Origin: Prostheceraeus crozeri | Lineage: Eukaryota; Platyhelminthes; Polycladida; Euryleptidae | Assembly (NCBI GenBank): GCA_907163375.1 | Contig: CAJQUW010003176.1 | Span: 496,001 to 560,000 of the forward strand | Length of the DNA stretch: 64,000 bases | Direction: 5' to 3' | The notes under the pieces: generated by a model | Seen by the model: the letters and a program-made list of their open reading frames with translations, nothing else | The model's database searches: none | What the model was told of the DNA's origin: nothing | Translations under genes and position numbers: made by a program | Shown here: positions 36,430-61,203 of the stretch, piece after piece | How positions within the stretch are numbered: the first letter of the stretch is position 1 | How the letters are laid out: every line of letters begins with the position of its first letter

Positions 36430-37870
36430 ACCTTCCGTAGATATCTCCGAATTTTTGCATGATGAAAAATAATTCCGTGGAGGAAAAACTCCTCACGTCT
36501 CAAAGTTAACATTGCGCCAATATTTTTGGTTGGTTTCATTGGCTAAATTTTCTTTGTTTGCAACGAAATAATGTTGGCTGAACTCATTTCTGTTATTCTC
36601 ACCTTGGTGATGACAATAAACAACTTTTAATAATTTTCAAGCTAAAGTCCAAAAATTAATATCAATATCAAGTCAATTAGTGCCTATGTTCTGTTGCATT
36701 CTTCTCATTCCAAAGCCACTGATGCATCACATTACTGTAAATTCCATTTTGAAGGAAATGTTTAAGCAAGTGACAGCTAGATCATCGCTACAAATTGAAT
36801 ACTATGTAGAAAATAACAACATGTTGTCACAACACAAATATATGCAACATTTAAGTGTCTAGGAAGATGCATAAGTATTTACACCCGGACAGGCTATTTG
36901 ACATGCAACATTTAAACTTTTGGCTGTGTCAATTCATGAATCGTTGTGAAATACCAAATTCATATGTTGTCATTTCTTTATTGAAATTTTATATTGTAAA
37001 TTGGCAGTGGCTATTACATCGGCTGAGCTGGTACGATTTTGGTCTCACGAATATTACACCGACTGAGCAGGTACAATTTTCTGACATGTCTGCTACCACG
37101 CCTCATATTTGTAAGCCATTGGGGACTCACAATTACTCAACATAAGAATTATTCATCAGAATGTGTCTTGACTCGCTGCGTTTCTTGCTTCACCTTACTT
37201 TGTCTTGATTCATTTTCTAGGCTTTTGTTTAGAAATTCAGTGATTTCTTGATCGAAATAAACTTATTTCCTAGTTATAGGACAATTTCGCTGAATAATAT
37301 CACACATTTAAACTGATGACTGTATAAAGCTTGGTGATTGAGAAATCATCAGCTCGAGTAGAGCAGAAAATTTGGAGCTAGAGACTGCTGCAATTCTAAA
37401 GATTAGTGTACTGTTTAGTGTTGTTTCAGAATGCATATTATCGTGCATAAACGCTTCACATTCTACTATAGAGCGAATTGGTATTTCATGGCCCAACAAC
37501 GACTAAATAAGGTAGTCGCTAACTACCGGTTAAAGGGCCTACGCGTCCACAAAAATGTAAGCATTGAAAAAGAGTATGTTTCGAAGACATCACCATAAGC
37601 CATTTCTATTATGACATGCTTATTGCTAATTACCATTCGTCACAGACAATGACACTTGCCAACTTCACAGAAATCTCGAATACAATAAACAGCGTTGTCA
37701 AATTGGTCTGTATTTCTCTGATTAAATGAGAAGCACGTAGTCTGGAGTCACAAATAGACATGGAATGTCTTCAAGTCATCTTCTATCTAAATGATGTTAC
37801 AATGTTTTTGATCGCTGATGTATACGAGAATGCAAAGTTGCCCGGAAGATTCTCTAGCAATGTCGCCGTA
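36430..37870 (+). repeat. left arm of a large inverted duplication
   Basis: It is matched in inverse orientation by 39492-41010. The inner 1.2 kb is nearly identical; the outermost 150 bp diverge, with small indels. The arms contain only short ORFs, mirrored on both sides, and no recognisable domain. Confidence 0.9.
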
Positions 37871-39643: not shown

Positions 39644-41010
39644 TATGTATATTTTCACGGTACATCAAAGTACATGTGACTCCAGACTACGTGCTTCTCA
39701 TTTAATCAGAGAAATACAGACCAATTTGACAACGCTGTTTATTGTATTCAAGATTTCTGTGAAGTTGGCAAGTGTCATTGTCTGTGACGAATGGTAATTA
39801 GCAATAAGCATGTCATAATAGAAATGGCTTATGGTGATGTCTTCGAAACATACTCTTTTTCAATGCTTACATTTTTGTGGACGCGTAGGCCCTTTAACCG
39901 GTAGTTAGCGACTACCTTATTTAGTCGTTGTTGGGCCATGAAATACCAATTCGCTCTATAGTAGAATGTGAAGCGTTTATGCACGATAATATGCATGCTG
40001 AAACAACACTAAACAGTACACTAATTTTTGGAATTGCAGCAGTCTCTAGCTCCAAATTTTCTGCTCTACTCGAGCTGATGATTTCTCAATCACCAAGCTT
40101 TATACAGTCATCAGTTTAAATGTGTGATATTATTCAGCGAAATTGTCCTATAACTAGGAAATAAGTTTATTTCGATCAAGAAATCACTGAATTTCTAAAC
40201 AAAAGCCTAGAAAATGAATCAAGACAAAGTAAGGTGAAGCAAGAAACGCAGCGAGTCAAGACACATTCTGATGAATAATTCTTATGTTGAGTAATTGTGA
40301 GTCCCCAATGGCTTACAAATATGAGGCGTGGTAGCAGACATGTCAGAAAATTGTACCTGCTCAGTCGGTGTAATATTCGTGAGACCAAAATCGTACCAGC
40401 TCAGCCGATGTAATAGCCACTGCCAATTTACAATATAAAATTTCAATAAAGAAATGACAACATATGAATTTGGTATTTCACAACGATTCATGAATTGACA
40501 CAGCCAAAAGTTTAAATGTTGCATGTCAAATAGCCTGTCCGGGTGTAAATACTTATGCATCTTCCTAGACACTTAAATGTTGCATATATTTGTGTTGTGA
40601 CAACATGTTGTTATTTTCTACATAGTATTCAATTTGTAGCGATGATCTAGCTGTCACTTGCTTAAACATTTCCTTCAAAATGGAATTTACAGTAATGTGA
40701 TGCATCAGTGGCTTTAGAATGAGAAGAATGCAACAGAACATAGGCACTAATTGACTTGATATTAATATTAATTTTTGGACTTCAGCTTGAAAATTATTAA
40801 AAGTTGTTTATTGTCATCACCAAGGTGAGAATAACAGAAATGAGTTCAGTCAATGAAATAAACCAAAAATCGTAACGTAGTACAAACTTTGAGACGATAG
40901 GAGTTTTCCTCCACGGAATTATCTTGGACCCCACGACTCAAAACTTTTAAAATTGCATTATCTTTCATCATGCAAAAATTCGCAGATATTCGGAATGGTA
41001 AACGTAAGCG
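39492..41010 (-). repeat. right arm of a large inverted duplication
   Basis: Inverse copy of 36430-37870. It carries an insertion of about 67 bp (about 39611-39677), absent from the left arm, which includes the GTA microsatellite. Confidence 0.9.
39611..39642 (+). repeat. GTA trinucleotide microsatellite
   Basis: About ten uninterrupted gta units. It is present only in the right arm of the inverted duplication, so it arose or was inserted after the arms formed. Confidence 0.95.
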
Positions 41011-43639: not shown

Positions 43640-44960
43640 AGGCAAGGAGTGGAGTGTCAGAGTTGGAAAAAGGCGGGTGTTGATGGTTTTGGGATGAGAA
43701 AAGTCGTTTTTCGACAGGAAGGAGTGCTCGGATGGGAAAACGGAGGCCAGATTTTGAATCTACGTGAAATTTTGGGTTAGGAAGGATGTTTCCAGCGACA
43801 TCGGAGAGGAAAAGTTTTGAAGACGTCCCCCCCTCCTCCTGCCAAACTCCCAACTTTGGTGTTAGAAATCGTAGAAAGTCGTGAAATAGCTCATTTGAAA
43901 GCTAAGAGTGAGAAAAATGCAGTGGAAAGCTCAGTTTCGTCCTATTTTCCTGGGTTTAGGGAGGAAAATGGCAAAAAAACGTCAGAGTTGGAAAAGGCGG
44001 GTGTTGATGGTTTTGGGATGAGAAAGGTCGGAATTCGGCATGAAGGAGGTCTCGGATGCGAAAATGGAGGCCAGATTCGGAATTTTTAGCCAATTTTGGG
44101 TTAGGAAGGATGTTTCCAGCGACATCGGAGAGGAAAAGTTTTGAAGACGTCCCCCACCTCCTGCCAAACTTCCAACTTTGGTGTTAGAAATCGTAGAAAG
44201 TCGTGCAATAGCTCATTTGAAAGCTGAGAATGAGAAAAATGCAGTGGAAAGCTCAGTTTGGTCCACTTTTCCTGGGTTTTGGGAGGAAAATGGTAAGAAA
44301 ACGTCAGAGTTGGAAAAGTCAGGTTTTGGAGGTTTGGGGATGAAAGTCCATTTTTCGACAGGAAGGAAGCCTCGGATGGGAAAAAGGAGTGCAAATTCGG
44401 ACGTTTTGGCCAATGTTGGGTCTAGGAACTTCCTTCCATCGACATCAGAGAGAAAAAGTTTTGAAGACCTCCCCCCCCTCCTCCTGCCAAACTTCCAACT
44501 TTGGTGTGAGAAATCGTAGAAAGTCGTGCAATTGCTCATTTGAAAGCTGAGAATGAGAAAAATGCAGTGGAAAGCTCAGTTTGGTCCACTTTTCCTGGGT
44601 TTTGGGAGGAAAATGGTAGGAAAACGTCAGAGTTGGAAAAGTCAGGTTTTGGAGGTTTTGGGATGAGAAAGTCCATTTTTCGACAGGAAGGAGGCCTCGG
44701 ATGGGAAAATGGAGTGCAAATTCGGACTTTTTGGCCAATGTTGGGTCTGGGAACTTCTTTCCATCGACATCGGAGAGAAAAAGTTTTGAGACGATCTCCT
44801 CGGCAACGATCTTCCAACTTTGGTTCCAGAGATGGTAGAAAGTCGTTCAATAGCTCGTTTGAAAGCTGGGAGTGAGACAAATTCAGTGGAAAACATGGCT
44901 TGTTCCACTCTGCCTTCGTTTAGAGGTGAGACGTTATTGAAAATTTTGGACATTGGCGAA
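43640..44960 (+). repeat. tandem repeat, unit about 322 bp, four copies
   Basis: The marker ccaactttgg recurs at 43850, 44172, 44495 and 44814, giving periods of 322, 323 and 319 bp. Each unit also holds aaaatgcagtggaaagctcag, a gaggaaaatgg block and (a/t)tttcgacaggaaggag. More degenerate traces continue to about 45270. ORFs of about 100 codons on both strands follow the period and appear to be by-products. Confidence 0.9.
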
Positions 44961-45350: not shown

Positions 45351-45877
45351 GGAAACTCGGCTTGTGGAAATCAGTTTTCCTCCCGACTGGGTTGGAGTAG
45401 GTAAACTCCGGAGCTCCTATGATAGCATTGGAAATCTGAAAAACCGGGTTTCTGAAAGAAACCGACTTAGAAAATTTCATTGCTGAAGTCAGCTAAGGCG
45501 TCAGACTTAGAGGTTCGCCAGGAGATGGCCTTAGTCTCCAGGCCATAAAAGACTCCAAAACTTTAAAGGCTTGTAACTTTGCTTCTGAAAGTCCGTTTGA
45601 CTTGATTCAAAAAAGGTTCGGTCGCTATTGACCTGCCCTAAGTGATGGACTACTTATAAAATTTCATAAGTAGTGCTAAAAAGTTGAAAAATTTAAATTC
45701 ACCAGTTTTGGAGGTTTTCTGGGGTTTCGACCTTCCTGAAGTCAATGAAAGGATTTTTAATGATGTCTGAGCCAGTCTTCTCATGCACCAAGCAGCTTTT
45801 CACTGAAAGCGAGCAAGACACGGAGAGTTTTGCTGTAATATTCCACTGACAGGGTGTTCCTTCGGGACGGCGGACGA
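45351..45877. other. left flank of the matched inverted repeat
   Basis: No gene recognised. The bases 45856-45873 (gttccttcgggacggcgg) match, as the exact complement, an internal copy at 59205-59222. This suggests that the element's left end extends further left than the part matched at the right end. Confidence 0.5.
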
Positions 45878-47230
45878 TGCCGTAGTGATAAGTGTGGCAA
45901 GGGAGTGTGTCATAGTTTAGACCGAAACCGCTGGGGAAACTCATGTCTCATGTTGGGCATTTGACACAGTTCTCAACGTAGCACTTTGAACGCCAATCGG
46001 TTGAGTCTTAGCTATCTTGTCATGGGTGGCCTCTAAACATCTCCATTGCAAAACGCTGGTGAATCAAGCTCTCTACGGCTTGCTATCAAGCTGATCAAAG
46101 TCTGTCAACCTCATACCAACTCTACCGATTTTCATGTCTGGCGATCAAGTCATGGACGGTGCAAGTCACGGAGATTTTCGGTGTGATACTTCCTGTGTGT
46201 GGGCGTTCTTTCGAGACAGCGGTGAAGTCCGTAGCGATGAGTACTGCAGGGGACGTGGGCAATGGTAATCCTTGTGAAACCTCTCTGCGTCATGTTTGCA
46301 AGTGGTTGCCTTTCGTCTCAACGTTGTACTCTGACCGCCAGGGCGACATTTAGCTATCTGCCACAGGTTACCTCATAAAATCTCCATTGCACTTGTCTCC
46401 CGACAGTTGGCCAACCATGCGAGAATGAACCATCAGTTCTTCTTGTCTCTATCACGGAGACGAATTGATGAAGCGATGAAACGGGAGGACATTCATGCGC
46501 CACACGCAACACATCACAGACTTCTCTCTTCGCTAGTGAACAAGCTCTTGTCAGTGTCGTCAGAAACTTTATCATGTTGTACAAAGGTTTTATTGCAACA
46601 CAGGTTGATGTATAGTTAGAAAGTTTGATCATCAACGTTTTATTCGTAAGTCTAGTCAGAAAGTGTATCATGGTTTGCAAAGTTAGTGTAGTCAAATAAT
46701 TTTACCGCGACACCCGTTTGAGAAAGTAAAGTTTGATCATGACGATTATTCGTGAGTGTCGTCAGGAAGTGCATCATGGTTTGTAAAAGTTTTACTGCAA
46801 CACAGGTTGATGTATAGTTAGAAAAGTTTGATCATAATGTTTTATGAAACACACATGTCATAAAATGTAAGCATTAGTGTAGTCAACAATTTCTTTACCG
46901 CGACGCACGTTTGTGAAAATAAAGTTTGATCATTGAAGTTGTATGACTGACCGAACTCATCACAGCACTAGAAAGTTTTAGGTTTTACTGCACAGTGTAG
47001 ATTGTCTTGTAACTTACTTTCACAGTGTTAGAAAGTTTTATTGGAGACAGTTGGCAAATGTTTCCCTATTAGAAAATTCAAACTCCATGACTGTTAGATT
47101 AGCTCCATCAGGTTTACTAAAAGCAGTTTTCTACTACAGTGAGACTGAGAGTTTAGAATGTCATATGAAAACAGTGTTCACCACAGCGCTAGAAAGTTAA
47201 GCACAACACAAGTGTCATGAAAAACACTTA
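45878..47230 (+). repeat. left long inverted repeat of the pPolB element
   Basis: It matches 59980-61203 in inverse orientation with high identity and one indel of about 200 bp (about 46985-47180 is extra here). It is itself internally repeated: an outer block of about 345 bp (about 45850-46080) recurs diverged at about 46195-46420, and a block of about 100 bp containing tttgatcat recurs near 46625, 46732, 46828 and 46925. Confidence 0.9.
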
Positions 47231-47431: not shown

Positions 47432-47878
47432 GTGAAATCTATAGTCACAACGTTTATGATGGCGCATCGTACCTTAAGTAACCACATGTGTCATTTAACT
47501 CTTGATAAACAAGGATTCGATGGATTTTTACAATCTTGGAAACTTACATTTAAAGTAGAGATGAATGATATGAAAGTGGCAGCAACTGAAAGTCTTCCTC
47601 TCTTCAAAAGATTAATAGAAAGTTTGCAACCTCAAGATGTGAAGGGTAGACTCATTGCTTATATTGAGTTGAAAGATTTGCAAAAACCACTTCGTTTTGA
47701 ATTCTATTGCTCAGAATGGACTACTCTTAGTGACCTATCTTATGCACGACATACGGAGAAAATTATGGAGAATATGGAAGGGACGATGGAAGGAAATGCA
47801 TCCGTTCTTAAATATATCATGATTCAAATGAGTGTGTTTACATCCACGACTTTGTTTGATCGTCGACACATTGTGTAG
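47432..47878 (+). CDS. small protein resembling the N-terminal region of the element's pPolB, 148 codons
   Basis: This is the first ORF inside the left inverted repeat; a poly(A) signal aataaa follows the stop (47883). It has no known domain by name. By eye its middle part follows the same pattern as residues about 155-285 of the polymerase and as the ORF at 59525: a helix of the type 'LPLFKRLIESL', a beta-like segment ('LIAYIELKD'), a 'RFEFYCSEWTT' strand, then 'RHTEKIMENMEG' and a final hydrophobic strand. A duplicated polymerase-accessory or terminal-protein-like piece is possible, but that is inference. The first Met may be at 47432 or at 47456, which starts 'MMAHRTLS'. Confidence 0.6.
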   Translation: MKSIVTTFMMAHRTLSNHMCHLTLDKQGFDGFLQSWKLTFKVEMNDMKVAATESLPLFKRLIESLQPQDVKGRLIAYIELKDLQKPLRFEFYCSEWTTLSDLSYARHTEKIMENMEGTMEGNASVLKYIMIQMSVFTSTTLFDRRHIV

Positions 47879-48253: not shown

Positions 48254-48850
48254 ATGGCAATCATTTCCGTCCTTGCGCTAACCATGCAGTTGCTCGAAGC
48301 CATCAGCTCCTCTGCTCTCGCACTGGGTACACTGAACTCCCTTACTTTAGCATCGGGTAAAAATGCTTTCAATCAAAAGATAACTCATCATGGAGAAGCC
48401 GTAACGATAAAAACTCCAAGTCATCGGATAGATTATCTGAAGGTTATGTCAACAAAGTATGGACTGGCCGTGTGTGTACCGTTTGACTATTGGACACGGC
48501 TAAAATTCAATACTCTTGAAACATTCCTGAAAGAAAATCTCACCATTCCCAAAGAAATTGTTCGACACAATGGGAAGCGGCCACAAGTTCCCATCATGGA
48601 AAGACGATACATGTATGTTCATATGGATAGACACTGTCTCATCATCCATGAAAAGGAGGGCAGTGAATTCGACTTACTCAATTGCAAACCACTCCCCATT
48701 TTGGGAAAAGGATTCTACTCCTTCGAAATTAAAATTCAAACCATCTACATGGGTCCGCGCAGGGACGGAAGGTTGTTTACGTTGAATCCGTATCTTGTCT
48801 CCATCACCTTTAAAAATGATGTCCATGTTGATGATGATCAACTACAGTAA
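48254..48850 (+). CDS. hypothetical protein of the pPolB element, up to 198 codons
   Basis: No family is recognised. The ORF opens with a short hydrophobic stretch, although the TATA-box position suggests translation may start at codon 11 (48284). The rest is mixed alpha/beta in appearance with a basic middle ('RHNGKRPQVPIMERRYMYVHMDRH') and an acidic end ('DVHVDDDQ'). It lies between the 47432 gene and the TBP-like gene in the same orientation. It could be a structural or DNA-binding protein of the element; the sequence gives no proof. Confidence 0.65.
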   Translation: MAIISVLALTMQLLEAISSSALALGTLNSLTLASGKNAFNQKITHHGEAVTIKTPSHRIDYLKVMSTKYGLAVCVPFDYWTRLKFNTLETFLKENLTIPKEIVRHNGKRPQVPIMERRYMYVHMDRHCLIIHEKEGSEFDLLNCKPLPILGKGFYSFEIKIQTIYMGPRRDGRLFTLNPYLVSITFKNDVHVDDDQLQ

Positions 48851-48939: not shown

Positions 48940-49638
48940 ATGCCACACTTGAACATGACTCTCTCTCCTTCTTTCTTAGGCATACCCTTCTTCACTCAGG
49001 TTTTAAACATGTGGAAATTATCAGCATGGCTCCATGTATCATGGAAACGTCAGTGTGTTACATTTCATGATACGAAACGTCAACTTCAGATAACTCTAGA
49101 ACGCTTTCAACTACGAAGGTTGCATCGCGCTATCCTATCCCACTCTTGCCGTGTCATTAACGTAGGAGACGGCATTGTATTTATTCGAATTCAAGAGATG
49201 ATTCTACATAATGATCACTGCTACATTGTGATTCCAAAACCCTCATGGGAAAAGTATAAAAGGGAAGTTCACTCAACCCTCATGCCATTTGTGAGTAATG
49301 GTCCCCATCCGCATCATCAACGCCATGCGCGAAATGAATCTCAGAAGAGACATCGATTTAGAACAGTTGCATACCCATCTTCCCGATTCAGTCTATCATC
49401 GCGGTCGTCGACAAATGTTGGTCATTCGCATGAGCAACGTTCGAAATCTTCAAATCTTTCGCTGCGGCAAAATCCAAGTCCTAGGAAACCTTTCTCATTT
49501 CGTGATGCAGTCCATGTGTTACGAAGTCGTCAAGAAAATGCGAACACTCATGCCTCATCTACGCCTCAGTCCCCTGACATTGAAGAATATAGTAGTGTCT
49601 GTTCAATTGAAGATGTTAGCGAATCTAGCCAACATTAA
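48940..49638 (+). CDS. hypothetical ORF overlapping the TBP-like gene
   Basis: The first about 117 codons (to about 49290) look like ordinary protein ('RVINVGDGIVFIRIQEMILHNDHCYIVIPKPSWEKY' pattern of beta strands). From 49298 onward the ORF becomes low-complexity, rich in Arg, Ser and His, and lies in a different frame over the TBP-like gene, so that part may be only its shadow. The two ORFs may be joined in one transcript by a frameshift or splice, or the longer one may end differently in the intact ancestor. Function unknown. Confidence 0.5.
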   Translation: MPHLNMTLSPSFLGIPFFTQVLNMWKLSAWLHVSWKRQCVTFHDTKRQLQITLERFQLRRLHRAILSHSCRVINVGDGIVFIRIQEMILHNDHCYIVIPKPSWEKYKREVHSTLMPFVSNGPHPHHQRHARNESQKRHRFRTVAYPSSRFSLSSRSSTNVGHSHEQRSKSSNLSLRQNPSPRKPFSFRDAVHVLRSRQENANTHASSTPQSPDIEEYSSVCSIEDVSESSQH

Positions 49639-49837
49639 AACCAGTAATCATTGTATATTTTATGAAACTGAACTCTTTCCTGCTGCTCTGATTCGGAAGT
49701 GGCATCCTGTACATATTGCAGTGTTTCACACCGGACATTGTATCATGACTGGTTTACGTGATATCAGTAAAGTAGCTGACATTGTTAAATCTTTAATGCG
49801 TTATCTGTATGAGTCACAGTTAATAGAATCGTGTTAA
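49298..49837 (+). CDS. TATA-binding-protein-like protein, 179 codons
   Basis: The protein consists of two copies of the TBP saddle repeat. Lobe 1 (residues about 4-84) contains 'LQIFRCGKIQVLG'; lobe 2 (about 93-172) contains 'KNIVVSVQL', 'YETELFPAALIR' and 'AVFHTGHCIMTG', matching the conserved N-I-V..., Y-x-P/T-E-x-F-P-A-x-I-x-R and F-x-S/T-G-K/H-x-x-x-T-G patterns of TBP. In TBP this pseudo-dimer bends TATA DNA and recruits TFIIB. The size matches the bare TBP core (about 180 residues). Residues in lobe 1 are more diverged than in lobe 2. Start ATG at 49298. It stands directly upstream of an array of TATA-like modules. It might substitute for, or compete with, host TBP on element promoters; that is inference. 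Confidence 0.75.
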   Translation: MVPIRIINAMREMNLRRDIDLEQLHTHLPDSVYHRGRRQMLVIRMSNVRNLQIFRCGKIQVLGNLSHFVMQSMCYEVVKKMRTLMPHLRLSPLTLKNIVVSVQLKMLANLANIKTSNHCIFYETELFPAALIRKWHPVHIAVFHTGHCIMTGLRDISKVADIVKSLMRYLYESQLIESC

Positions 49838-49889
49838 TCACATGATGTGTTTTGAATGAGTCATCGCAATGAACTATCGCCCACTCTCT

Positions 49890-50373
49890 TGTCAGTGAAA
49901 AGGTCATCAACAAGGTTCGTCGCTTTATGATGAGTCAGCGCTATTTATAGACATGAAATGATGTCTATACACTTGTCGGTGAAAAGATCATCAACAAGGT
50001 TCATCACTTTATGATGAGTCAGCGCTATTTATAGACATGAAATGATGTCTATACACTTGTCGGTGAAAAGATCATCAACAAGGTTCATCACTTTATGATG
50101 AGTCAGCGATATTTATAGACATGAAATGATGTCCACACACTTGTCGGTGAAAAGGTCATCAACAAGGTTCATCACTTTATGATGAGTCAGCCTTATTTAT
50201 AGACATGAAATGATGTCCACACACATGTCGGTGAAAAGGTCAGGATGTCTGACATGAGGCGCCATCGATGTTGAATGACACGCCCACACACGTGTCGGTG
50301 AAAAGGTTGAACAAGATTGATTAGATTCGTATGACTGACGCCTTACCCCTTCATGAGTCAGAGCTATTTATAG
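49890..50373 (+). promoter_or_regulatory. tandem 84-bp modules, each with TGAGTCA and a TATA-like CTATTTATAG
   Basis: The marker gtcggtgaaaag recurs at 49975, 50059, 50143 and 50227 (84-bp period). TGAGTCA occurs at 49931, 50015, 50099, 50183 and 50354, and 3 bp after each comes (c/a/t)tatttatag at 49941, 50025, 50109, 50193 and 50364. Constant spacing of an AP-1/TRE-type site and a TATA-like element in five modules looks like repeated core promoters or factor-binding units. They point right; no intact ORF follows directly in that direction, because P2 is inserted and the pPolB gene is antisense. Confidence 0.65.
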
Positions 50374-50439
50374 ACATCAGTCAGCAAAGTGGTTGATGTT
50401 TCCTATGCCGAAGAAATTGTCATGATGCTACATTCGTTG

Positions 50440-51130
50440 GTGAGGATGTTAGCTTACAAACTCTAACATGGTTATGACTTCATTTATATTTCACCTATCT
50501 TACAAACAGTGATATGGTGATAACTTTATTTCTAACTTTACAATCATCAACTTTATTTCTAACTTTACAATCATCAACTTTATTTCTAACTTTACAAACG
50601 TCAACTTTATTTCTAACTTTACAAACAGTGAAGTGATTCTGACTTCATTTTATATTTCGCCTATCTTACAAACAGTGACATGGTTATAACTTTACAATCA
50701 TCAACTTTATTTCTAATTTAAAAAGCAGTGAAGTGATTCTGACTTCATTTTATATTTCGCCTATCTTACAAACAGCGACATGGTGATAACTATATTTCTA
50801 ATTTTACAATCATCAACTTTATTTCTAACTTTACAAACGTCAACTTTATTTCTAACTTTACAAACAGTGAAGTGATTCTAACTTCATTTATATTTCACCT
50901 ATCTTACAAACAGCGACATGGTGATAACTTTATTTCTAACTTTACAAACAGTGAAGTGATTCTGACTTCATTTTATATTTCGCCTATCTTACAAACAGCG
51001 ACATGGGTATAACTTTATTTCTAACTTTACAAAAAGTGAAGTGATTCTATCTTCATTTATATTTCACCTATCTTACAAACAGCGACATGGGTATAACTTT
51101 ATTTCTAGCTTACAATCAACAACTTTGTTT
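50440..51130 (+). repeat. complex tandem repeats between the TATA modules and P2
   Basis: Blocks such as acaaacagtgaagtgattctgacttcatttta, tatttc(g/a)cctatcttacaaacag and caactttatttctaactttacaa recur many times with variable order. It is AT-rich and has no ORF. It may be an origin, a matrix-like or a silenced region; nothing in it is diagnostic. Confidence 0.8.
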
Positions 51131-51223
51131 CTAACACTACCCATCTTACAAAATGATTAAAACTTTTATTTCTTTCTAATGAGTGAGAATCCCATCTTTA
51201 TGTCAAAAGAAAAACGACACAGT

Positions 51224-51232
51224 ATGTACATG
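51224..51232. repeat. target-site duplication of P2, left copy
   Basis: atgtacatg, repeated at 53743-53751. One base longer than the 8 bp usual for P elements. Confidence 0.8.
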
Positions 51233-51672
51233 CAGGTATATATAGAGGTAGGGGATTGATAACTCCTTTACGCTCTTACCAAGTGTAGGGTTAAAATTCA
51301 ATATTTTCAAAACTATAATGAAAGCTTAAATTTGTGTTTATGTATATCTACATTTTGAAGTGAGAACTGCCAAATACAATCGAAAGCTTGTTTTATTGAA
51401 ATAATCTTAATTTTGACAAAAAATATCAGCTTATTTTAATATGAACCAGTAATTTTTCTGAGCTTTCGCTCATTTTTTTCAGGTTCTTTTTCAGTATTCA
51501 TTCGTTTTAACTCGTTTTTTGCAAAACAGTTGAATGCGCATATTACAATCGGTTCAAAACATAGGTGCCCGGAGGTACATTTCTGTTGAATCAATGAATT
51601 CATTTCTGATGTATCAGACGAAACAATCTGAGATAAAATACACAGAAATAGTTTACGCGGGTATAAAGACGA

Positions 51673-52430
51673 TTAAAACTTCATGCGAATACTTTCATGA
51701 CTAATCAAAAATTCATAGCACATCACTGCGAACGATGTGACAGTGAAACAGAAATCCGTCGGCTTGCATAAGCCACCTCGGTCAGCCATCTTGAATAATT
51801 GCTCAATACTTTCTGGTAAATTGCAGGATTCTTCGTCTTGTAAGACTAACAGTAATTTGCAATTATCACAATGTCTCCGGCGACTAATGCTTCGGCCTAT
51901 ATATCCGGCAACAAAAAAGGAGATGTTTGCATCATTCACCGAAACGTCATCCAAGGATAAAGTTTTCATTTCATCAATAAAATCTGAACAAAGATCATTC
52001 GATAGTGTAGCGTAATCATCAACACTCAAAGATGATCGGTCATCTAGATGAGATGCTTGGAAGATCATGTTTTTCTGAATGCAAGTCAAAACTCGAATTT
52101 TCTTTTCTGCTTGTAGGAGTTGCTTGATGGACATGTAGAAGTTTCCGCCGTTAAGCTGACGGTACCAACCGAACCTACCTTCAATTGGGTCCGAGGAAAA
52201 TTTTCCAGTTAAGACGTAATCAAAATCGTGATGCTCCAATAAATGATATGCCAGTAATTCCATTGCTGTCATCGATTGTATGCAGGCAAGAAATGTCTCT
52301 GAGGTTAAACCAGTCATTTTAGATGATTTCCAGGTTTTGAAGACTTGTATTGCTTGCTTCAGAAACAATACCGAGACATCCTGTCTCGATCGAATTGGTT
52401 TGCAATGATCATCAAGCTTTCGAGCACCTG
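51673..52430 (-). CDS. C-terminal exon of a THAP9/P-type transposase (P2)
   Basis: The frame is open to 52503, but a strong acceptor (ttgcatttcag) ends at 52431, so the exon probably starts at 52430. It has the C-terminal P/THAP9 pattern 'TGKFSSDPIEGRFGWYRQLNGGNFYMSIKQLLQAEKK', with the Asp/Glu-containing 'DPIEGRFG' motif, and a Cys/His-rich tail. The catalytic RNase-H core seen in P1 (18.2-19.4 kb) has no counterpart between this exon and the THAP exon, where only about 510 bp of non-coding DNA lie. Confidence 0.85.
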
Positions 52431-52940
52431 AAATGCAATTGATGTAACTGTAGAAGTACAGGTATATATTTAAACAAAGGACATTTTGCATTTGTGAATA
52501 CACAAAGAGCTGGGAATGAAGTAGTCCATTGAATGATAGGAGTTAAATGTTTCTGTTAGCTAGCATATGCACATGTATAGGCATTTTCCTACATGTTCAC
52601 TGTTTGCCTGTAAACTGTGAAACAAAGGTAATTAAATCGCGAAAAAATTAGCTGTATTCAACGAACAAACTTACATGTAGATAGATGGCATTTCAGTCCA
52701 GATATAGTAGCAATATTTATGTTACGCGTATATTGTGAATCTTATCTAAGTGATTTGGCAAGAGTATGCATATTGATCAAAATTATGAACAGCTTTTTCA
52801 AAAACATAATAACATAAAAAATAACTACCGGTAAGTTTCAAAATAATGTTTACTGGTTTTCTCTTCTCTGATGATCATTTGCGAAGTTAGATGAGAAACA
52901 GATTTTCAAGAGCAGACAAAGTTTATTGGATAATTTAAGC
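52431..52940. other. non-coding interior of P2, site of the core deletion
   Basis: AT-rich intron-like sequence between the two P2 exons. No transposase core sequence is visible on either strand. Confidence 0.6.
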
Positions 52941-53393
52941 TTAAAGTTGAAATGGGGTCCGACTTAATCCGACCCACCCTATGTTATTATAAACACATTC
53001 TTCAATGCGTGAATTGTCAAGTAGAAGTCGTACTGATGACGTCGATGAATGGGTTGGTCTGGTGGTTTTGAGTGGTTTTGATAGATACAGAGGTAAAGCA
53101 GGGAAAATTCGAGGAACTGCACCGGGTCGTACTCTAGGTGTTCGCAAATCTTTTGTATCTCTCCGTTTATCTAGCGACGTAAATGTTATATCCTCGGCGT
53201 AAAAATGCTTTGAGCACACTCTTGTTGAGTTGGTCACTATTAGATTTTGTCTTGGTATTTGTTTAAGCCAAAGATCACGCTGTTGTTCATCAGTTGGGAA
53301 TCTGAAGAAGGACACCGGAGACTGTGGAGAATCTTCATTCTTTAGCGGTTTGTAGCCGCTACGGCACTTCGGGACACAATACGTGTACACCAT
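52941..53393 (-). CDS. THAP-domain exon of P2
   Basis: The ORF starts at the ATG at 53393 and reads 'YCVPKC' (first Cys pair), a conserved Trp in 'RDLWLKQIPR', 'VCSKHF' (C-x2-H) and 'AVPRIFP', which together are a complete THAP DNA-binding zinc domain in about 95 residues. The rest is a Ser/Pro/Arg-rich linker. The exon is open to 52941; a donor (ggtgggt) near 52970 is possible. In P elements the THAP domain binds the transposon ends. With the core deleted, a THAP-only product would resemble the KP repressor of Drosophila. Confidence 0.88.
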   Translation of the reverse strand: MVYTYCVPKCRSGYKPLKNEDSPQSPVSFFRFPTDEQQRDLWLKQIPRQNLIVTNSTRVCSKHFYAEDITFTSLDKRRDTKDLRTPRVRPGAVPRIFPALPLYLSKPLKTTRPTHSSTSSVRLLLDNSRIEECVYNNIGWVGLSRTPFQL

Positions 53394-53742
53394 CGAAGAA
53401 CGACGAATGCTAGTGATATTCCACTGAAGTTGTGAGCGGAAATGATATTGACTGCAGCTGTGTGTGACTGAAGCAATGTCTCACCGAAGTAATACAATCA
53501 GCATTCGATCGATCGATGGTTGATGTGCGCACGCGGTTATTGAGGCTGTGTGTCCCCGCTGATCTAAGACAGACATCGCCACACACGCACACACGAAGTA
53601 CACATTGTAAAGACAACGGTACATAGTGACGAAATCTATTTGATTCCCAAATTACAGCACACCAGAATTTTAACCCTACACTTGGTAAGGTCAGTGCTAA
53701 CAGCAGATGTAGTTATCAATCCCCTACCTCTATATATCCCTG

Positions 53743-53751
53743 ATGTACATG
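53743..53751. repeat. target-site duplication of P2, right copy
   Basis: atgtacatg, identical to 51224-51232. Confidence 0.8.
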
Positions 53752-54035
53752 ATATGTTATTCATCATCACAACCGATTTCCATAGCACCGCACATAGTTA
53801 ATACTGATGGTAGCAGAAAACATAGTTTTTATGGCTCACATCACCGGAGAAAACAAAGTCACTCATGTACAGGGAGAAAACAACGTCAGGAAAACCAGTT
53901 GATATGCAAGTCATGATATGAAGTGATCAGGAGTTGGACGCGTGTTACAAGGCACTCACTCACAACATCCCCATAGAAAACGCCATGGAGCGAAAAAGCA
54001 AAACATCAACCACAACAGAGAGGAAGCATTCATCA
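53752..54035. other. short spacer between P2 and the polymerase 3' end
   Basis: About 280 bp with no recognised feature; the polymerase mRNA would end here in the minus direction, but P2 has landed about 290 bp beyond the stop. Confidence 0.4.
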
Positions 54036-57000
54036 TCAGACATCGCCGGACGGAGGAAGAGAAAGTTTCCGTCTCTTGGGTGGAGGTAGATGAGTGTCTG
54101 GATGGCCGTACGGTAATGAGTGGTTAGGACTCATCCAGCATCGCTTGTCTTCCCAAGCTGAGAGACCTCGTTTCCTAAACGTCGTTGTTCTGACTTGATG
54201 CGACTGTGATTTTGAAATGGTCATTTCTACTTTTTTAATTTTAAGAGAATCTAAGGCATCTTGATAGTCCCTATGTGTCATTTTTCTAACGATTGACTTC
54301 GAGATGCCTTTCGCCCGTTTAATAGGAAGCTCTGAGGATTTTAGCTTCATGGAGTACATCTTGGGGCGAAGCAAGATCATCTCCTCTATCAGTTTGCCGG
54401 CACACTCATCCTTGAAGCAGCCAAGCTTCTCTTTATTTGTGGTAGAGTAAAGCGGATGGTCAGTGGGATAGTTGGAACTATCAAACTTGGGTGCTAAATA
54501 TTTTAAAATGTCTTCCTGCTTGACTTGGCTCGTGGTTGTCAAAGCTAGGAAGAAGCTGTCTGTATCGCCTCCTACTAATTCCACACGTTGGAGCAATGGA
54601 CACGTTTTAAAAGTGTGGTAAAATAACTTATACATTTCTAACTTGGAGTGATCCAAGACAGCTTGACCGACATAAATGGGCTTACAAAGTTCTACTTTAG
54701 ATTTTAACATTTTAAAACCAGTAATGTCTTCGGAAATGACATCATGGTGGCAAAACAACGGCGAGCGACATAACTTGATACTCGTTTCCGGATCAGTTAC
54801 GATGCGATAGTCCATGCGCTTTCTTACATCCTCCATGCTTTTACCAAAGAGGGCATTATTCTTAAATTTAAAGAAGTCCTTTTCGAAGGGATTCTTGGAT
54901 TCATCCCGTTTCTTGCTATTAAATTCTATATACGGTTTTAGAAAGGGCTTCTGCCTAAACTGGATGGCGCGATGGACTTTGTCAAGTTGCATCCCCATAG
55001 ATAGAATTTGAGGATGGAATAGTGCACGATGTAATGCTGCTTGTTCAATTGGGTGAGCAACAACTTCCTAGTGGCTTTCTACTTTTAGTCATTTTCTGCC
55101 TCATACTGCTCATTGTGTTCTTCCATAAAGGGAGAGAACATATCTGTACTGACTATGCCAGATTCGGGTGCGAGAGGAAAATCAACGGTCCTATTCTTAA
55201 TGCAGTCTGGATAGATGAGGTCGACTTCAAATAAATAACCTATGTCGGCCTCATCTCCCAGTGCCATGATGTGTGCTGGATTGGAGTAGTATTCAATGAC
55301 ATGGGGCTCTACCCATTGGAAGTCAGACTGTGGCAAAGGCTTGGAGAGTGCACCCCCATACAAATTATTTTGGTCTATGTACATTAAATACGTGGTCGAT
55401 CCTATGTCTTGGGTGCTGTTGACAACATGTTTGTTGACAAATGTCAAGCCACTCCTTATACCACGTTCAAATAGCGTGTACATTTCTGCATCTTGCAGTA
55501 AATGAATGCTCTCTTTCGTCATCTTGAAGGCTGACTGATAGGACAGACCCGGCAGACTAACAAAATGGACGGGGTCTAAGGCGTCCTGTTCTAATGTGAC
55601 TTTCCTAAAAGTCTCAAACACGTCAGCCAACAGATAGACGTCTAATTTTAAGTAGGCAAGCATGTAGTCACCAAAAGTGCGACACCTAAATTCTAACCAT
55701 GCTTGCTCTGCATGCCTATAATCATCCAGCGAACAGTCCTCACCCGTCAAATCATTTTTAAATTTATCGATGGATGGAAGGGATGTTTCTTTCAATGTGT
55801 CTATTGAACTGAAATAACTATAAGGAAGCACCCCTTTCCGACGTATCAGACTGTCACTTATGTTGGGATAGTCTTTCTTTAAATGTTGAGTGAGGGGAAG
55901 TGTTTCTAAATTATTAGCCAACGCGGCTAAGGAAGAAGACATAAACTGGAAACTGTCTAGAATCTTTATGTCATAGAAGACAGGCTTCCCCTCCTTCGTC
56001 TTATCGACTTGGACTTTAGCAGTGATGCACATAAATTTTTCCTTACTTTGTGCAATCACTTTGGATGACCAGGATTTCATTTTACCGAATCCATGGCGAA
56101 TGATGATGTGAGCATCATAACATTTAAAGGTATGAAAGATGACGGGGAGCGTTCGCCGTTTGAGCCTAAGTTTCATATTGCATTTACTGCATAAGGCAGA
56201 CCTAAATTTACCACTGAGATGGCAATGGTCCCTCACTTTCTTATGTTGCTGATCATCCAAGGATGAACAGCAGCGGGGACATTCCGTGGTCCTATCAAAC
56301 TTGATTTTATCGGCTTCTGTGAAGCACATGGGTTTCCTAGTCAGCTCCGCTTCATAGCGTTGATGAAAACGGGCTTTCCTATCTAAAAAGTTGAGGAAGT
56401 TTTCAACGCACTCCTCGCCTTGCCACACATGCATTTTATTTTGGTTCCTATAATATGGATGCCAGACTTCATAACAGGCAATGGCTGCTGGCTCATGACT
56501 TAGGTCTTCTTGTTCAATATAACATTCAATGTCCGCATAGATGGTACATATGGGACTGAGCTCATTGCCGTTTTCTTCATAGATATAAAATTTATCTTTG
56601 GGCATGACTTCCATTTGAAGCTTACCCTGAGAGCACCACTCGTAATGCTGTTCAAAAAATGGTTTAGATGTGAAACTTCGTGTGCAACGATCACAGTAAT
56701 AATGTTTGTCATCATAACTTTGTTGGTGGCGATACAATCTAGAAATTTTGGGAATGCCACAATAATGCCATTCTGGGTGGTTGTCGCTATAGACTAGGAG
56801 GAGATTGACAACCCGGTCGAAGTTACTTTGGCGATTATTATACCTAACGCCTTTCAGACCCTTTTCCCAGAGATGGATGACAATCTTAATGTTATTCAAT
56901 TTTTCAAATTGGGCGATGCCTTTAAAATCTAATGTGTTGACATCTAACCCGTCAAACTTAAGCTCATCCTCCCATTCGCAATACTTGGTGACTCTTTGAC

Positions 57001-57958
57001 GATGCTTACCTACATCATTATAGTGAAGAATGGAGAGGACGGCATACTTGAAACACTGGGACTGACATTCTACATTGAAGACAGCCTTTTTGTCAGCTAG
57101 TGCTTTGGGGAGGGTGAAACAACCGCTCCCTTGTAAATTTTCTAAAAGATTTATTTTAATGTCTACCTTCTCTATCCCATCAAAGACCAGACCGCTGTCT
57201 CTTTCATTAAATTTATTTAAGTTGCTGACGAGATAGGTCGCATGTCTCTCTATCCACTCGTTTACATCACCTATCAGATCAGCAGCACAGGAGGCTATCC
57301 TAATGGTAACAGTGGACTCTACTTCTCCCGTGCTACTGTCTACCTTATTGAAACGAGCAGTGAGATAGAACATGCCCTTAAGTAAAAATCTATCTAAACT
57401 CGCCAACATTTGATGAATTAAGCCTATATTATTCATCAAGAAAGAATGAATGTCTTGCACAGCTTCAGAGCTTTCTAACTCATAACCGCGAACGAGCCTC
57501 TCAAGGGAAAACTTGCTCAGCCTTAGAGTGACGTTGTTGTCAGTGTAAAGCTCAGTGGGATGAGTGTGACAGAGTGTGTGCGAAGAAAGAACAAACTCTG
57601 TAGGAAAGGTCTTCTGACACGAAGAACAGGAAAAGCCGACGTGCGATGAAGGATGCTTCCTACCTGATGACGTTGGTGGTTGCCTCACACTACCACAGGA
57701 ACCGCCTTCGATGTGGACTCGCAAGTTGGTGCTGTTGTAGAACGTGCGTCCACAACCTTCACACTTGGGCCGTTGAGGGATCGGTCGGCGTGTCTTCTCC
57801 ATATCTTCTTTCGCTTTTGGGCAGCGAGAATGCCGGTGTCGCCGAAGGCAGAATGGCCTCGCGAAAACCTGCCCGCAGTCCGTACAGTTGAGCTGTCGAG
57901 CCGTAGATCCTTCTCTCTCCCTCACACCTTCCTCCTCGATTGCAATCTCCTCTCCCAC
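54036..57958 (-). pseudogene. protein-primed family B DNA polymerase (Polinton/Maverick type), broken
   Basis: The 957-codon ORF (57958-55085) begins, at a GTG in the open frame, with three C2H2 zinc fingers (residues about 25-46, 66-88, 111-131). Next comes the region found before pPolB in animal Polintons, with 'ENLQGSGCF' and 'CFKYAVL' (about residue 300), another zinc finger (about 420) and the 3'-5' exonuclease: ExoI 'DIE' about 475, a Cys/His 'RDHCHLSGKFR' insertion of endonuclease-VII type about 585, ExoIII 'LKLDVYLLAD' about 776. Motif A is 'DQNNLYG' (about 865). Two stops follow at about 55080, then about 25 open codons and a frame change near 54998, after which the second ORF gives motif B 'KFKNNALFGK' and motif C 'GGDTDS' (residues 143-148; the usual Tyr before DTD is replaced by Gly) and a complete C-terminus. 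It would replicate the element by protein priming. The N-terminus is unresolved. Confidence 0.92.
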
Positions 57959-57963
57959 TATCT

Positions 57964-58893
57964 CTAACCCTCCTGCTCCAACAATCTCTCCACCGACTTG
58001 ATGGAGAGGAGAGGGAGCTCGGACACTGCAGGTGGTGGTGGTTGTGATGCAGGGATGATGATGGGACGGGAGGGAACGTCGCCGTCCAGGAGGTAGACCG
58101 CCAGATCTGTTGAGAAAAAGAGAAAAGAGATTAGTAGCATGATCAACATTTCAAGTTTGAAGTCTTATCCCCCTAATTCCCAATCACGGTTACTTACCAT
58201 CTAATGAATTGATCTCTGGCAGCAAGGATGTACGCGGAGGAGGTAGGAGTGGGACACGAGCCGAGGGTGGAAGGGTCCTCGGCTTCGGTGTCGGAGGGAC
58301 GTGATGACGAGGAGCAGGGACGGGTGCAGGGAGCGGAGCTGGCGGTGGAGGTGGGGCGATGACAATGCCCGAGAGAGGAGTCGCAGTTTGGGCGGAGGTA
58401 GATGAGCGGGAAGGTAGGGCCGGAAATTCATCGTGGTATTTCCGCCTCGCGGCTTCCTCCCACTTCTTCATCTTCGCCATATCTGTAGAGAGGAAAGAGA
58501 GATTAGATTAGAGGTTGCGGAGATAATAATGATAGAGAGTAAGCTATGCGGATACAGAAGTGCTAAAACATGACATTCCAACTCTCATAGGTGAGGATAC
58601 TTACACTTGCCAAGCCGCTCGTAAGCTTGCCCGATTGCTCCTTGGGGGACGGGTTCCCCATTACGAATGCATTCATGCACTGAAAAAGAATGACAGCAAA
58701 GATGAGCAGAGGTAAATTTGAATTCGGTTTAGACATGAACAAAATAAGGGAGGGGCTCTTGATTTTAATGAGGATGTCTACCCTAATGATGTTAGTAATA
58801 GAGTCAACCTTGATACAAATACTTACATTGCTCGATGGTAGCCTTCTCCATCTCAGCAGCAATTCGATAGTTCTCAATTTTCGTAAACTCCAT
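57964..58893 (-). CDS. four-exon proline-rich protein of the pPolB element, 189 residues when spliced
   Basis: Coding exons 58893-58827, 58679-58605, 58482-58198 and 58106-57964 are joined by three introns, all with GTAAGT donors and pyrimidine-rich CAG acceptors, all in phase 1, and the sum (570 bp) is an open frame ending in TAG. The first two exons and the start of the third give a charged helical N-terminus ('MEFTKIENYRIAAEMEKA', then 'QGAIGQAYERLGK' and 'KMKKWEEAARRKYHDEFPALP'). The remainder of exon 3 is very Pro-rich; exon 4 ends 'LLSIKSVERLLEQE'. No family recognised. The gene ends 6 bp before the polymerase ORF starts, in another frame, so the two probably share a transcript or alternative splicing. 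A terminal-protein or virion-like role is possible but unproven. Confidence 0.75.
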
Positions 58894-59127
58894 GTCGGAT
58901 AGTTAATAATAGATACTGAATAGTAAGACTTCAATCTCTGAAAAAGAAAGATGAGAATCATTTCATTTGCCTAGTCAACGTTTATCATGGGAACATTCAT
59001 TGAAGTGACATCTAATGAATTACATTTCACTCTACTCCATATCATAAAGACTAACCTTTGTCGAATGGCTAAAGTACTCTGACCTGGCGAGAGAAAGCAT
59101 CACGTTGAGTATGAAGTCGAACGCCCA

Positions 59128-59235
59128 ACATGAGCAACGGCTCAGAGGTTTCGGTCTAACAAACGAAGAACAACCCGTGCAACGCAATCCCTCTACGGCA
59201 GTACCCGCCGTCCCGAAGGAACGCTCGAGCAAAGG
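59128..59235 (-). repeat. internal diverged copy of the outer inverted-repeat block
   Basis: It shares cccaacatgag, gaggtttcggtctaa and ctctacggcagta in order with the outer end of the right inverted repeat (about 61120-61203), then ccgccgtcccgaaggaac with the left flank (45856-45873). It overlaps the first intron of the minus-strand transcript. Confidence 0.7.
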
Positions 59236-59336
59236 AGGTATTACAGCGATGATATGTTGTATGAGTAGAAGCGAATCTCTTGATAGCAAGAGACAACATG
59301 AAAACAACCTGATAGCAGGAGCTCACCGACACTCAC

Positions 59337-59390
59337 CTTGTGAAAGATAAATGTGAAGAGCAGAGCTGATACACTGCCTTTTATAAGATT
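59337..59390 (-). promoter_or_regulatory. TATA box, 5' exon and splice donor for the minus-strand transcript
   Basis: On the minus strand cttataaaagg (59379-59389) is a strong TATA box. About 45 bp further on, the 5' exon would end at 59337 in ctttcacaag followed by GTGAGT. The matching acceptor (ctttttcag) ends at 58938, leading into the ATG-containing exon (from 58937; ATG 58893). This gives a complete promoter and untranslated first exon for the proline-rich gene and perhaps the polymerase. Confidence 0.7.
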
Positions 59391-59524
59391 TTCCTAAGCG
59401 GTGAATGGATCAGACCTCTCGTCCAATCACAGACGAGCTAGAGTTCCCGATGTGCGCACGCACGTTTGTAACGCGTTCTTGAAATCGTGTTAGGCAAAAA
59501 TGTTGTTTAGAATAGACTCAACCA

Positions 59525-59976
59525 TGGCACCTGAAGTCAATACATTGAAACATGATGATTGCACGATTCGTTTTCATCAAGAGTACTTCAGAGCCTTAAT
59601 ACAAGACTACATCCTTGAGTTTCAAAGGGAGGAGACAGAATTGGAAGCATGTTCAGACTAGACACGAAAAATATTTACGGAGTTGATATCTTATTTCAAA
59701 GACATTCTCATCAAGGCTCATTTAATTGCACATGTCAATTACATTCATTTTCCACAAGGTGAAGTATCGGAAAGTGTTGATTTTCAATTTCGTTCCTATG
59801 GACAAGAATATGTTGCTGATGCTTCTGAGTTTTATACACGACATCTGCGGAAGATTATTTCTCGGATGGACAACTTTCATGGTTACGGCGATCATTTGCT
59901 TCTGAATAAAATAAACCATATTGTCATTGCTATTAGTAAAGTGGGTTTCAATGATGTTAAATCAAAGACCAAATAA
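59525..59976 (+). pseudogene. small pPolB-N-terminal-like protein with an amber stop, about 150 codons
   Basis: ATG at 59524-59526 in an 'accatgg' context opens a frame interrupted by TAG at about 59659 and then continuing to TAA at 59974-59976. The stop overlaps an aataaa poly(A) signal. The pattern 'ISYFKDILIKAHLIAHVNYI', 'DFQFRSYGQEY', 'EFYTRHLRKIISRMDNFHG', 'INHIVIAIS' follows residues about 185-275 of the element's polymerase ('NEWIERHATYLVSNLNKF', 'IEKVDIKINL') and the ORF at 47432. It lies just inside the right inverted repeat and reads outward. Function unknown. Confidence 0.55.
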
Positions 59977-59979
59977 AGC

Positions 59980-61203
59980 ATTTTTCATGACACTTGTGTT
60001 GTGCTAAACTTTCTAGTGTTGTGGTGAGTTCGGTCAGTCATACAACTTCAATGATCAAACTTTACTTTCACAAACATGCGTCGTAGTAAAATTATTTGAC
60101 TGCAATAACGCTTACATTTCATGACACTTGTGTTTCGTAAACGCCGATGATCAAACTTTACTTTTACAAACGTGTGTCGTAGTAAAATTATTTGACTACA
60201 CTAGCTCTTACATTTTATGACATGTGTGTTTCATAAAACATCATGATCAAACTTTTCTAACTATACATCAACCTGTGTTGCAGTAAAACTTTTACAAACC
60301 ATGATGCACTTTCTGACGAAACTCACGAATAATCGTCATGATCAAACTTTACTTTCTCAAACGGGTGTCGCGGTAAAATTATTTGACTACACTAACTTTG
60401 CAAACCATGATACACTTTCTGACTAGACTTACGAATAAAACGTTGATGATCAAACTTTCTAACTATACATCAACCTGTGTTGCAATAAAACCTTTGTACA
60501 ACATGATAAAGTTTCTGACGACACTAACAAGAGCTTGTTCACTAGCGAAGAGAGAAGTCTGTGATGTGTTGCGTGTGGCGCATGAATGTCCTCCCGTTTC
60601 ATCGCTTCATCATTTCGTCTCCGTGATAGAGACAAGAAGAACTGATGGTTCATTCTCGCATGGTTGGCCAACTGTCGGGAGACAAGTGCAATGGAGATTT
60701 TATGAGGTAACCTGTGGCAGATAGCTAAATGTCGCCCTGGCGGTCAGAGTACAACGTTGAGGCGAAAGGCAACCACTTGCAAACATGACGCAGAGAGGTT
60801 TCACAAGGATTACCATTGCCCACGTCCCCTGCAGTACTCATCGCTACGGACTTCACCGCTGTCTCGAAAGAACGCCCACACACAGGAAGTATCACACCGA
60901 AAATCTCTGTGACTTGCACCGTCCATGACTTGATCGCCAGACATGAAAACCGGTAGAGTTGGTATGAGGTTGACAGACTTTGATCAGCTTGATAGCAAGC
61001 CGTAGAGAGCTTGATTCACCAGCGTTTTGCAATGGAGATGTTTAGAGGCCACCCATGACAAGATAGCTAAGACTCAACCGATTGGCGTTCAAAGTGCTAC
61101 GTTGAGAACTGTGTCAAATGCCCAACATGAGACATGAGTTTCCCCAGCGGTTTCGGTCTAAACTATGACACACTCCCTTGCCACACTTATCACTACGGCA
61201 GTA
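59980..61203 (-). repeat. right long inverted repeat of the pPolB element
   Basis: Inverse copy of the left repeat. It ends at ctacggcagta (61193-61203); the internal copy at 59191 continues past the same bases into accgccgtcccgaagg-type sequence whereas here unrelated DNA follows, so this arm appears cut short at that point. Confidence 0.9.

Follow-up and report, generated by a model that had tools for sequence, protein, structure and literature searches.

The window analyzed here is a stretch of 64,000 nucleotides from the flatworm Prostheceraeus crozeri. It contains an element enclosed by terminal inverted repeats that match at 97.7% over 1063 nt. Within the repeats, ORF148, ORF198, ORF232, a TBP-like gene, an 84-bp array, a second repeat block and a THAP transposon follow one another and are succeeded by a pPolB gene on the opposite strand. 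The features are as follows, in order of position.

45878..46978, plus strand: left terminal inverted repeat (best arm 45878-46940, paired with 61200-60140)
47432..47878, plus strand: ORF148, with a DNA match of 80 to 94% in at least 8 of the 10 window-like genome slices described below
48254..48850, plus strand: ORF198, with TATAAAAC 22 nt upstream of its ATG
48940..49638, plus strand: ORF232, which overlaps the start of the TBP gene out of frame
49298..49837, plus strand: TBP-like gene, 179 aa, from profile, fold, family and genome searches
49881..50377, plus strand: 84-bp tandem array, 4.3 copies to 50242 and an extra copy of the motif at 50353
50483..51172, plus strand: second tandem-repeat block
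51217..53757, minus strand: nested DNA transposon, which does not belong to the element proper, with inverted repeats and a THAP-domain ORF (61.2 bits)
54036..55067, minus strand: C-terminal piece of pPolB, with the polymerase motif GGDTDSFF
55085..58150, minus strand: N-terminal piece of pPolB, with C2H2 fingers, an endonuclease VII-like domain and the exonuclease part
58190..59385, minus strand: upstream part of the pPolB transcription unit, multi-exon-like, read by eye
59102..59247, minus strand: internal copy of the terminal-repeat sequence, 70% identical to 45832-45979
59494..59976, plus strand: ORF with one stop inside, neither piece of which matches Pfam above the cut-off
60140..61200, minus strand: right terminal inverted repeat, paired with the left arm

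Repeat-like sequence continues outside the left arm, from 45813 (45813-46050 resembles 46161-46391), and other repeats are present at the end of the right arm, for which reason the ends of the element and its target-site duplication could not be fixed. The copy of the terminal-repeat sequence at 59102-59247 lies beside the pPolB unit and thereby links the pPolB side to the element ends. In the upstream part of this unit, GTAAGT/GTGAGT sites resembling splice donors were observed, and TATAAAAG is found at 59385. The polymerase has 1187 relatives; among the best 120 listed, most carry EndoVII and some carry DNA_pol_B_2. In the window the endonuclease VII-like domain scores 22.8 bits, just under the cut-off of 23.6. 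A frame break separates the two pieces of pPolB, and a stop interrupts the ORF at the right end, which indicates that the window copy has decayed. Elsewhere in the genome, pPolB copies with long uninterrupted frames were found.

For ORF198 a single relative was found (P0050, 96%), and its AlphaFold model is unusable, with a pLDDT of 36.9. The family of ORF232 gave neither a Pfam match above the cut-off nor a PDB match; a PC4-like domain had been suspected in it and was dropped, nothing being found in Pfam or PDB. ORF148 shows no likeness to the second piece of the ORF with a stop near the right end. An Rfam search of the window returned no match, no rve integrase hit was obtained in it, and the best tblastn match in the window to the TFIIB of contig L004 (see below) reached only E 3.3.

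Other repeats and transposons are also present in the window. Satellite-like units that recur in tandem about every 715 bp, with up to 100% identity between neighbors, occupy 4000-16500, and a tandem repeat of 323 bp (3.8 copies) lies at 43656-44892. Identical 96-aa ORFs in inverted orientation at 36855-37145 and 40282-40572 form another inverted repeat. Directly outside the right repeat of the element, at 62678-63958, lies a piggyBac-type transposase (DDE_Tnp_1_7, 200 bits).

Family, fold and conserved residues of the TBP-like protein

TBP is a core factor of RNA polymerase II initiation and marks where genes are switched on. The ORF at 49298-49837 matches the TBP profile PF00352 in two stretches with 77 bits, against a cut-off of 22.9, and is predicted to adopt the saddle fold, its two lobes spanning the full TBP core. 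A search of 5.8 billion proteins returned 49 relatives that are 40 to 97% identical, and PF00352 was found in every one of them. The original prediction, that this ORF encodes a two-lobed TBP, is confirmed, the profile match being well above the cut-off; the reading of the gene as a chance ORF was rejected.

The residues of the family were explored in an alignment of 41 rows (A1), which comprises the window protein and 40 of the 49 relatives; P0029, P0030, P0033, P0037, P0040, P0041 and P0047-P0049 were left out. Mean identity is 52.6% inside the family and 22 to 26% against four cellular TBPs. In a tree the 41 family rows stand apart from these four, but the branches are long, the bootstrap did not settle and the split is supported at no more than 92/92. 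Among the residues that never vary in the family are G36, R37, F54, Q60, N97, E123, F127, P128, F143, T151 and G152.

Four columns of the alignment, two in each lobe, align with the DNA-intercalating phenylalanines of cellular TBPs. The first, in the N-lobe, is Pro in 38 of 41 family rows and Phe in all four cellular TBPs aligned; the other three (F54, F127 and F143) are Phe in every family row. The central asparagine is kept in both lobes (N97 in 41 of 41 rows, N8 in all 39 rows with a letter at this position), and the threonine column of the N-lobe is Leu in 39 of 41. The C-lobe stirrup E-x-E-L-F-P, which in cellular TBP meets TFIIB, has E123, F127 and P128 in all rows and E125 and L126 in 40 of 41. 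In the window copy itself, at least two near-invariant positions deviate from the family. Throughout the family, these residues give a canonical C-lobe next to an altered N-lobe. Since the N-lobe lacks the first intercalating Phe and the Thr, TATA binding may be altered or lost, and the Pro in the first column means that the protein is a TBP by family and fold, and not a canonical TATA-binding TBP.

Viral fold matches (E up to 0.001) are mostly to giant-virus proteins where these are named, at no more than 19% identity. The element shares a virus-encoded TBP fold with giant viruses, the best named match being Heterosigma akashiwo virus 01 (E of 2.5e-10, 19% identity). The fold matches to herpesvirus proteins (U58, BcRF1 and the UL87 domain) are weak, with E values of 1.6e-3 to 5e-3, and the matched proteins are far longer, with 577 to 1005 aa against the 179 aa of the window TBP. 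In IMG/VR no locus was confirmed for relatives of the TBP ORF, of pPolB or of the TFIIB of L004. No TBP was confirmed among 80 pattern matches in prokaryote genome contigs, and the search for TBP relatives in phages found none.

Copies in the host genome and two types of element

Genome searches were carried out on the 2.05-Gb host assembly that contains the window. The element TBP protein was found in at least 150 places, including the window, at 95 to 100% protein identity (the best 150 of 11,294 candidates), and 148 of these 150 have no stop. The C-terminal piece of pPolB was found in at least 125 places, again including the window, at 94 to 100% (the best 125 of 20,020). These lists hold only the best-scored candidates, and the copy counts are therefore lower bounds. 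A listed pPolB lies within 8 kb of 57 of the 150 TBP places, the window included, where 0.15 would be expected under uniform placement. From the side of the polymerase, a TBP from either the PF00352 list or the protein list stands alongside 62 of the 125 places, 1.1 to 5.2 kb away from match start to match start, and the two genes are convergent in 62 of 62 listed pairs. Four rows of the PF00352 list (on C9306 and C3829) were left out of this pairing analysis. The TBP gene had been predicted to reside inside a pPolB element, a proposal to which absence of the ORF from other copies of the element would have been fatal. Both genes lie within one inverted-repeat pair, the linkage recurs elsewhere in the genome, and the ORF is present in at least 149 other places, and beside pPolB.

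A search of the genome with the PF00352 profile gave 150 scored places, the best among 10,983 candidates from a first look. At the head of the list (L005, 143 bits) stands a separate gene, the putative host TBP, for which BLASTP against the element TBP yields nothing meaningful (E of 13). Another TBP-family place, at G000:C3829:151570-151938 (L006), contains a stop, is separate from the putative host TBP and is weak against the element family; it is perhaps a TBP paralogue or pseudogene.

Polintons/Mavericks characteristically carry pPolB, an rve integrase with a chromodomain, an adenain/Ulp1-type protease, an A32-like ATPase and a jelly-roll capsid. From the 150 PF00352 places, 20 slices of 10 kb were taken, namely, the ten TBP-like rows that directly follow the host-like ones in the list and, from there on, approximately every fifteenth. 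Ten of them are window-like (type 1) and ten are Polintons (type 2). The family TBP is present in all 20, the type-2 copies carrying a diverged version of the same family, and pPolB was found at E<1e-50 in 17, with no clear pPolB in L021, L025 and L030.

In the type-2 slices, tblastn showed integrase, protease, pX-like and capsid-like ORFs in ten of ten and the ATPase in nine, and pPolB was found within the slice in eight. We gave the names "capsid" and "pX" from size, place and look. The integrase scores 51.3 bits in L014 and 41.2 in L019 (rve, cut-off of 32.6), with a chromodomain above the cut-off in both. The protease matches C48 with 22.9 bits in L014 (cut-off of 20.7) and has no Pfam match in L019, and the ATPase of L014 falls below the Pfam cut-offs, yet is 36% identical to that of contig L003 (E of 3e-44). 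The capsid-like ORF, of about 430 aa and found in all ten slices, has no Pfam or PDB sequence match; a relative in L004 is 24% identical over 414 aa (E of 3.8e-29). The TBP gene of this type is located between the protease and a capsid-like gene, on the opposite strand. A diverged TBP relative inside integrase-bearing Polintons was thus verified in ten of the ten type-2 slices.

In the window-like slices, ORF148, ORF198, ORF232 and the array were matched, among the matches listed. The type-2 capsid-like, protease and ATPase proteins gave no tblastn match in the window or in the ten window-like slices, a search that can miss distant versions, and for the integrase these ten slices gave none but one 88-aa match of 35% near the edge of L017. 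The start of TBP is overlapped in both types, by ORF232 in the window and by a relative in type 2; ORF232 is 24 to 35% identical to four ORFs (in L014, L019 and L029).

Type-2 copies therefore resemble known Polintons in pPolB, in the rve integrase with chromodomain, in the C48-type protease, in the L003-like ATPase and in the capsid-sized and capsid-placed ORFs, and window-type copies resemble them in pPolB and the long inverted repeats. Unlike Polintons as described in the literature searched, the elements carry a TBP gene, and the window type also differs from them in that capsid-like, integrase, protease and ATPase genes were not found. The window holds a decayed copy of a reduced Polinton relative, in which pPolB, TBP and the ORF overlapping it remain. 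In the host genome, where this Polinton lineage is highly amplified, the elements sampled carry TBP as a regular gene. This regularity, as read from sequence, concerns the sampled elements of this genome and is not claimed for Polintons generally. The original prediction had also held that TBP is not known as a standard Polinton component, and this stands in that no report of TBP in Polintons appears among the matches listed from the literature searched.

Across the 26 rows of type-1 TBP, mean dN is 0.0080 and mean dS 0.0312, a ratio of 0.257 in which dN is biased downward by the frame filter and by the drawing of 20 rows from a list ranked by protein likeness. For the window TBP against the other rows, dN is 0.0147 and dS 0.0269. 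The window is counted twice in these rows (also as L033), and only copies with a complete frame, free of stops and more than 80% alike, were used. Given the sampling biases, these values fit purifying selection on TBP during amplification, together with a decaying window copy.

Promoter motifs, the 84-bp array and a parallel element

The motif TATAAAA is found 22 nt upstream of ORF198 and 43 nt upstream of TBP, and a further copy heads the pPolB unit. The element has 9 occurrences, where shuffles give 3.33 and 1 shuffle in 300 attains that number, an enrichment not seen for TATAAAAR (2 occurrences, 1.63 in shuffles, attained in 150 of 300). Only 9 of the 797 ATGs of the element have TATAAAA 13 to 60 nt upstream. 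The TATAAAAGG before TBP is weak evidence, because it also encodes conserved residues of the overlapping ORF232. Inside L014, L019 or L029, no 8-mer was common to three or more upstream regions.

The 84-bp array is situated where the gene blocks converge, on the downstream side of each, and holds TGAGTCA and CTATTTATAG-like sites, together with five TATTTATA sites. TGAGTCA is AP-1-like and CTATTTATAG fits a MEF2 site, so that host factors may read the array. It was matched in eight of the ten window-like slices, L024 and L026 being the exceptions, and has the look of an enhancer or origin.

L004, an adintovirus/Polinton-like contig that was binned as Rickettsiaceae, carries pPolB, an adenovirus-type protease (22.6 bits, cut-off of 21.3) and a capsid-like ORF, and at 8684-9936 a TFIIB-like gene (41.3 bits) adjoins a divergent TBP-like gene (23.7 bits, cut-off of 22.9). 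This contig is like the window element in being a pPolB element with a TBP-like gene, and unlike it in that its TBP is very distant (14.7% identical to that of the window) and is accompanied by a TFIIB-like protein. It represents an independent parallel to the TBP elements of the host genome. L004 has three copies of TATTTAAGAA (0.21 expected). One precedes the capsid-like ORF by 62 nt, another precedes a pX-like ORF by 55 nt, and the third, at 11129, has no close start. L003 has one, 49 nt upstream of its capsid-like start. This pattern was spotted post hoc, and of 20,000 random pairs, 193 (about 1%) had a 10-mer in common as two 60-nt L004 windows do. The sole TATTTAAGAA of the window element (0.11 expected) sits within ORF148 and not ahead of a gene. 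Contigs L001 to L004 all carry pPolB, and three or more of them are Polinton/adintovirus-like. They sit in Ectothiorhodospiraceae, Saprospiraceae and Rickettsiaceae MAGs, where they are probably eukaryotic contamination.

A proposed role for the element TBP

Viral versions of TBP are reported from large DNA viruses, and poxviruses bring their own RNA polymerase. The element differs from the poxvirus arrangement, with its VITF-3 TBP/TFIIB-like pair, in that no RNA polymerase gene is present among the element ORFs examined. TBP is reported in 59% of mirusvirus genomes (PMC10132985) and, sporadically, in putative mirusvirus-derived elements of an alga (PMC10675990). A mirusvirus genome of 431.5 kb is described (PMC10132985), in contrast with the Polinton-size pPolB element found here. 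The vTBP of beta- and gammaherpesviruses (UL87/ORF24/BcRF1) is described as working with host RNA polymerase II on late genes (PMC7498053), and this would make it the closest functional analogue of the element TBP.

The reading that we favor, with a probability of roughly 0.6, is that the element-encoded factor recruits host TFIIB and RNA polymerase II to the promoters of the element. It is backed by the TBP family and predicted fold, the conserved contact columns, the copy number, the linkage with pPolB, the presence of TBP in all ten type-2 slices, the low dN/dS and the parallel in L004. Counting against it are the altered N-lobe, the lack of TATAAAAR enrichment, the missing common 8-mer upstream of type-2 genes and the three slices with no clear pPolB. 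The element TBP would settle on AT-rich core promoters of the element, where its intact C-lobe would bend the promoter DNA, and would dock host TFIIB and RNA polymerase II, TFIID not being needed. Element genes, perhaps late ones, would then be expressed apart from host promoter control. We infer, for the element TBP, DNA binding, TFIIB docking, promoter choice, timing and transcriptional independence alike. The changes in the N-lobe point to a different half-site or to less tight bending. Divergent TBPs can shift their DNA preference, an example being Giardia TBP, which is reported to lack key Phe and to prefer single strands (PMC12209930). That TBP persists in elements in which no capsid genes are detectable points to a role in the cell rather than in the particle.

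A replication or packaging factor, in which TBP would bend the terminal repeats or the AT-motif array and aid protein-primed replication, is an unlikely alternative. The retention of TBP alongside pPolB in reduced elements and the position of the five TATTTATA sites, between convergent gene blocks, are consistent with it, but it leaves the conserved TFIIB-facing residues without a role. The array, moreover, was not matched in L024 and L026, and CTATTTATAG also fits a MEF2 site, so that host factors may read it. The combination of a conserved C-lobe stirrup with a changed N-lobe DNA face would also suit a decoy, or host shut-off factor, that binds host TFIIB or polymerase through the stirrup with no productive DNA loading and so damps host transcription or antiviral responses. 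This we consider distinctly unlikely. A pure decoy would have no use for the three intercalating-Phe columns (of four) and the two central Asn that the family retains, and the reduced type-1 elements still keep the gene.

TBP is a host-type gene and elements capture genes, and the element copy could accordingly be a hitch-hiking host TBP with no function in the element. This is highly improbable, and an origin as a host copy is rejected, since the putative host TBP (L005) has no meaningful BLASTP alignment to the element TBP and the family is diverse (49 relatives), common to two element types and, in type 1, has a dN/dS of 0.257. Finally, nested insertions do occur in the window, but with 62 of 62 listed pairs convergent and both genes within one inverted-repeat pair, the proposal that the TBP gene is part of another element inserted next to pPolB is rejected with near certainty.

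The recruitment of host TFIIB and polymerase by the element TBP can be extended to a broader proposal, which is tentative and to which we give somewhat less than even odds. Host Polintons would carry their own promoter-recognition switch, a TBP that has a remodeled N-lobe, reads a core promoter distinct from those of the host and is kept even by satellite-like elements without capsid and integrase, functions presumably borrowed from full Polintons. Taken with L004, where a TBP-like and a TFIIB-like protein accompany a TATT-type motif before the capsid-like gene, Polinton-type elements might repeatedly gain herpesvirus-like late-transcription factors.

A regular Polinton TBP, with at least 150 near-identical copies plus reduced relatives, would mean that promoter takeover also occurs in small integrating elements, and an element with its own TBP may choose which of its genes the host cell reads. 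The transcription of an integrated element apart from host TFIID control would thereby become testable, and a single-chain TBP variant with one lobe altered would provide material for studying the evolution of TBP specificity.
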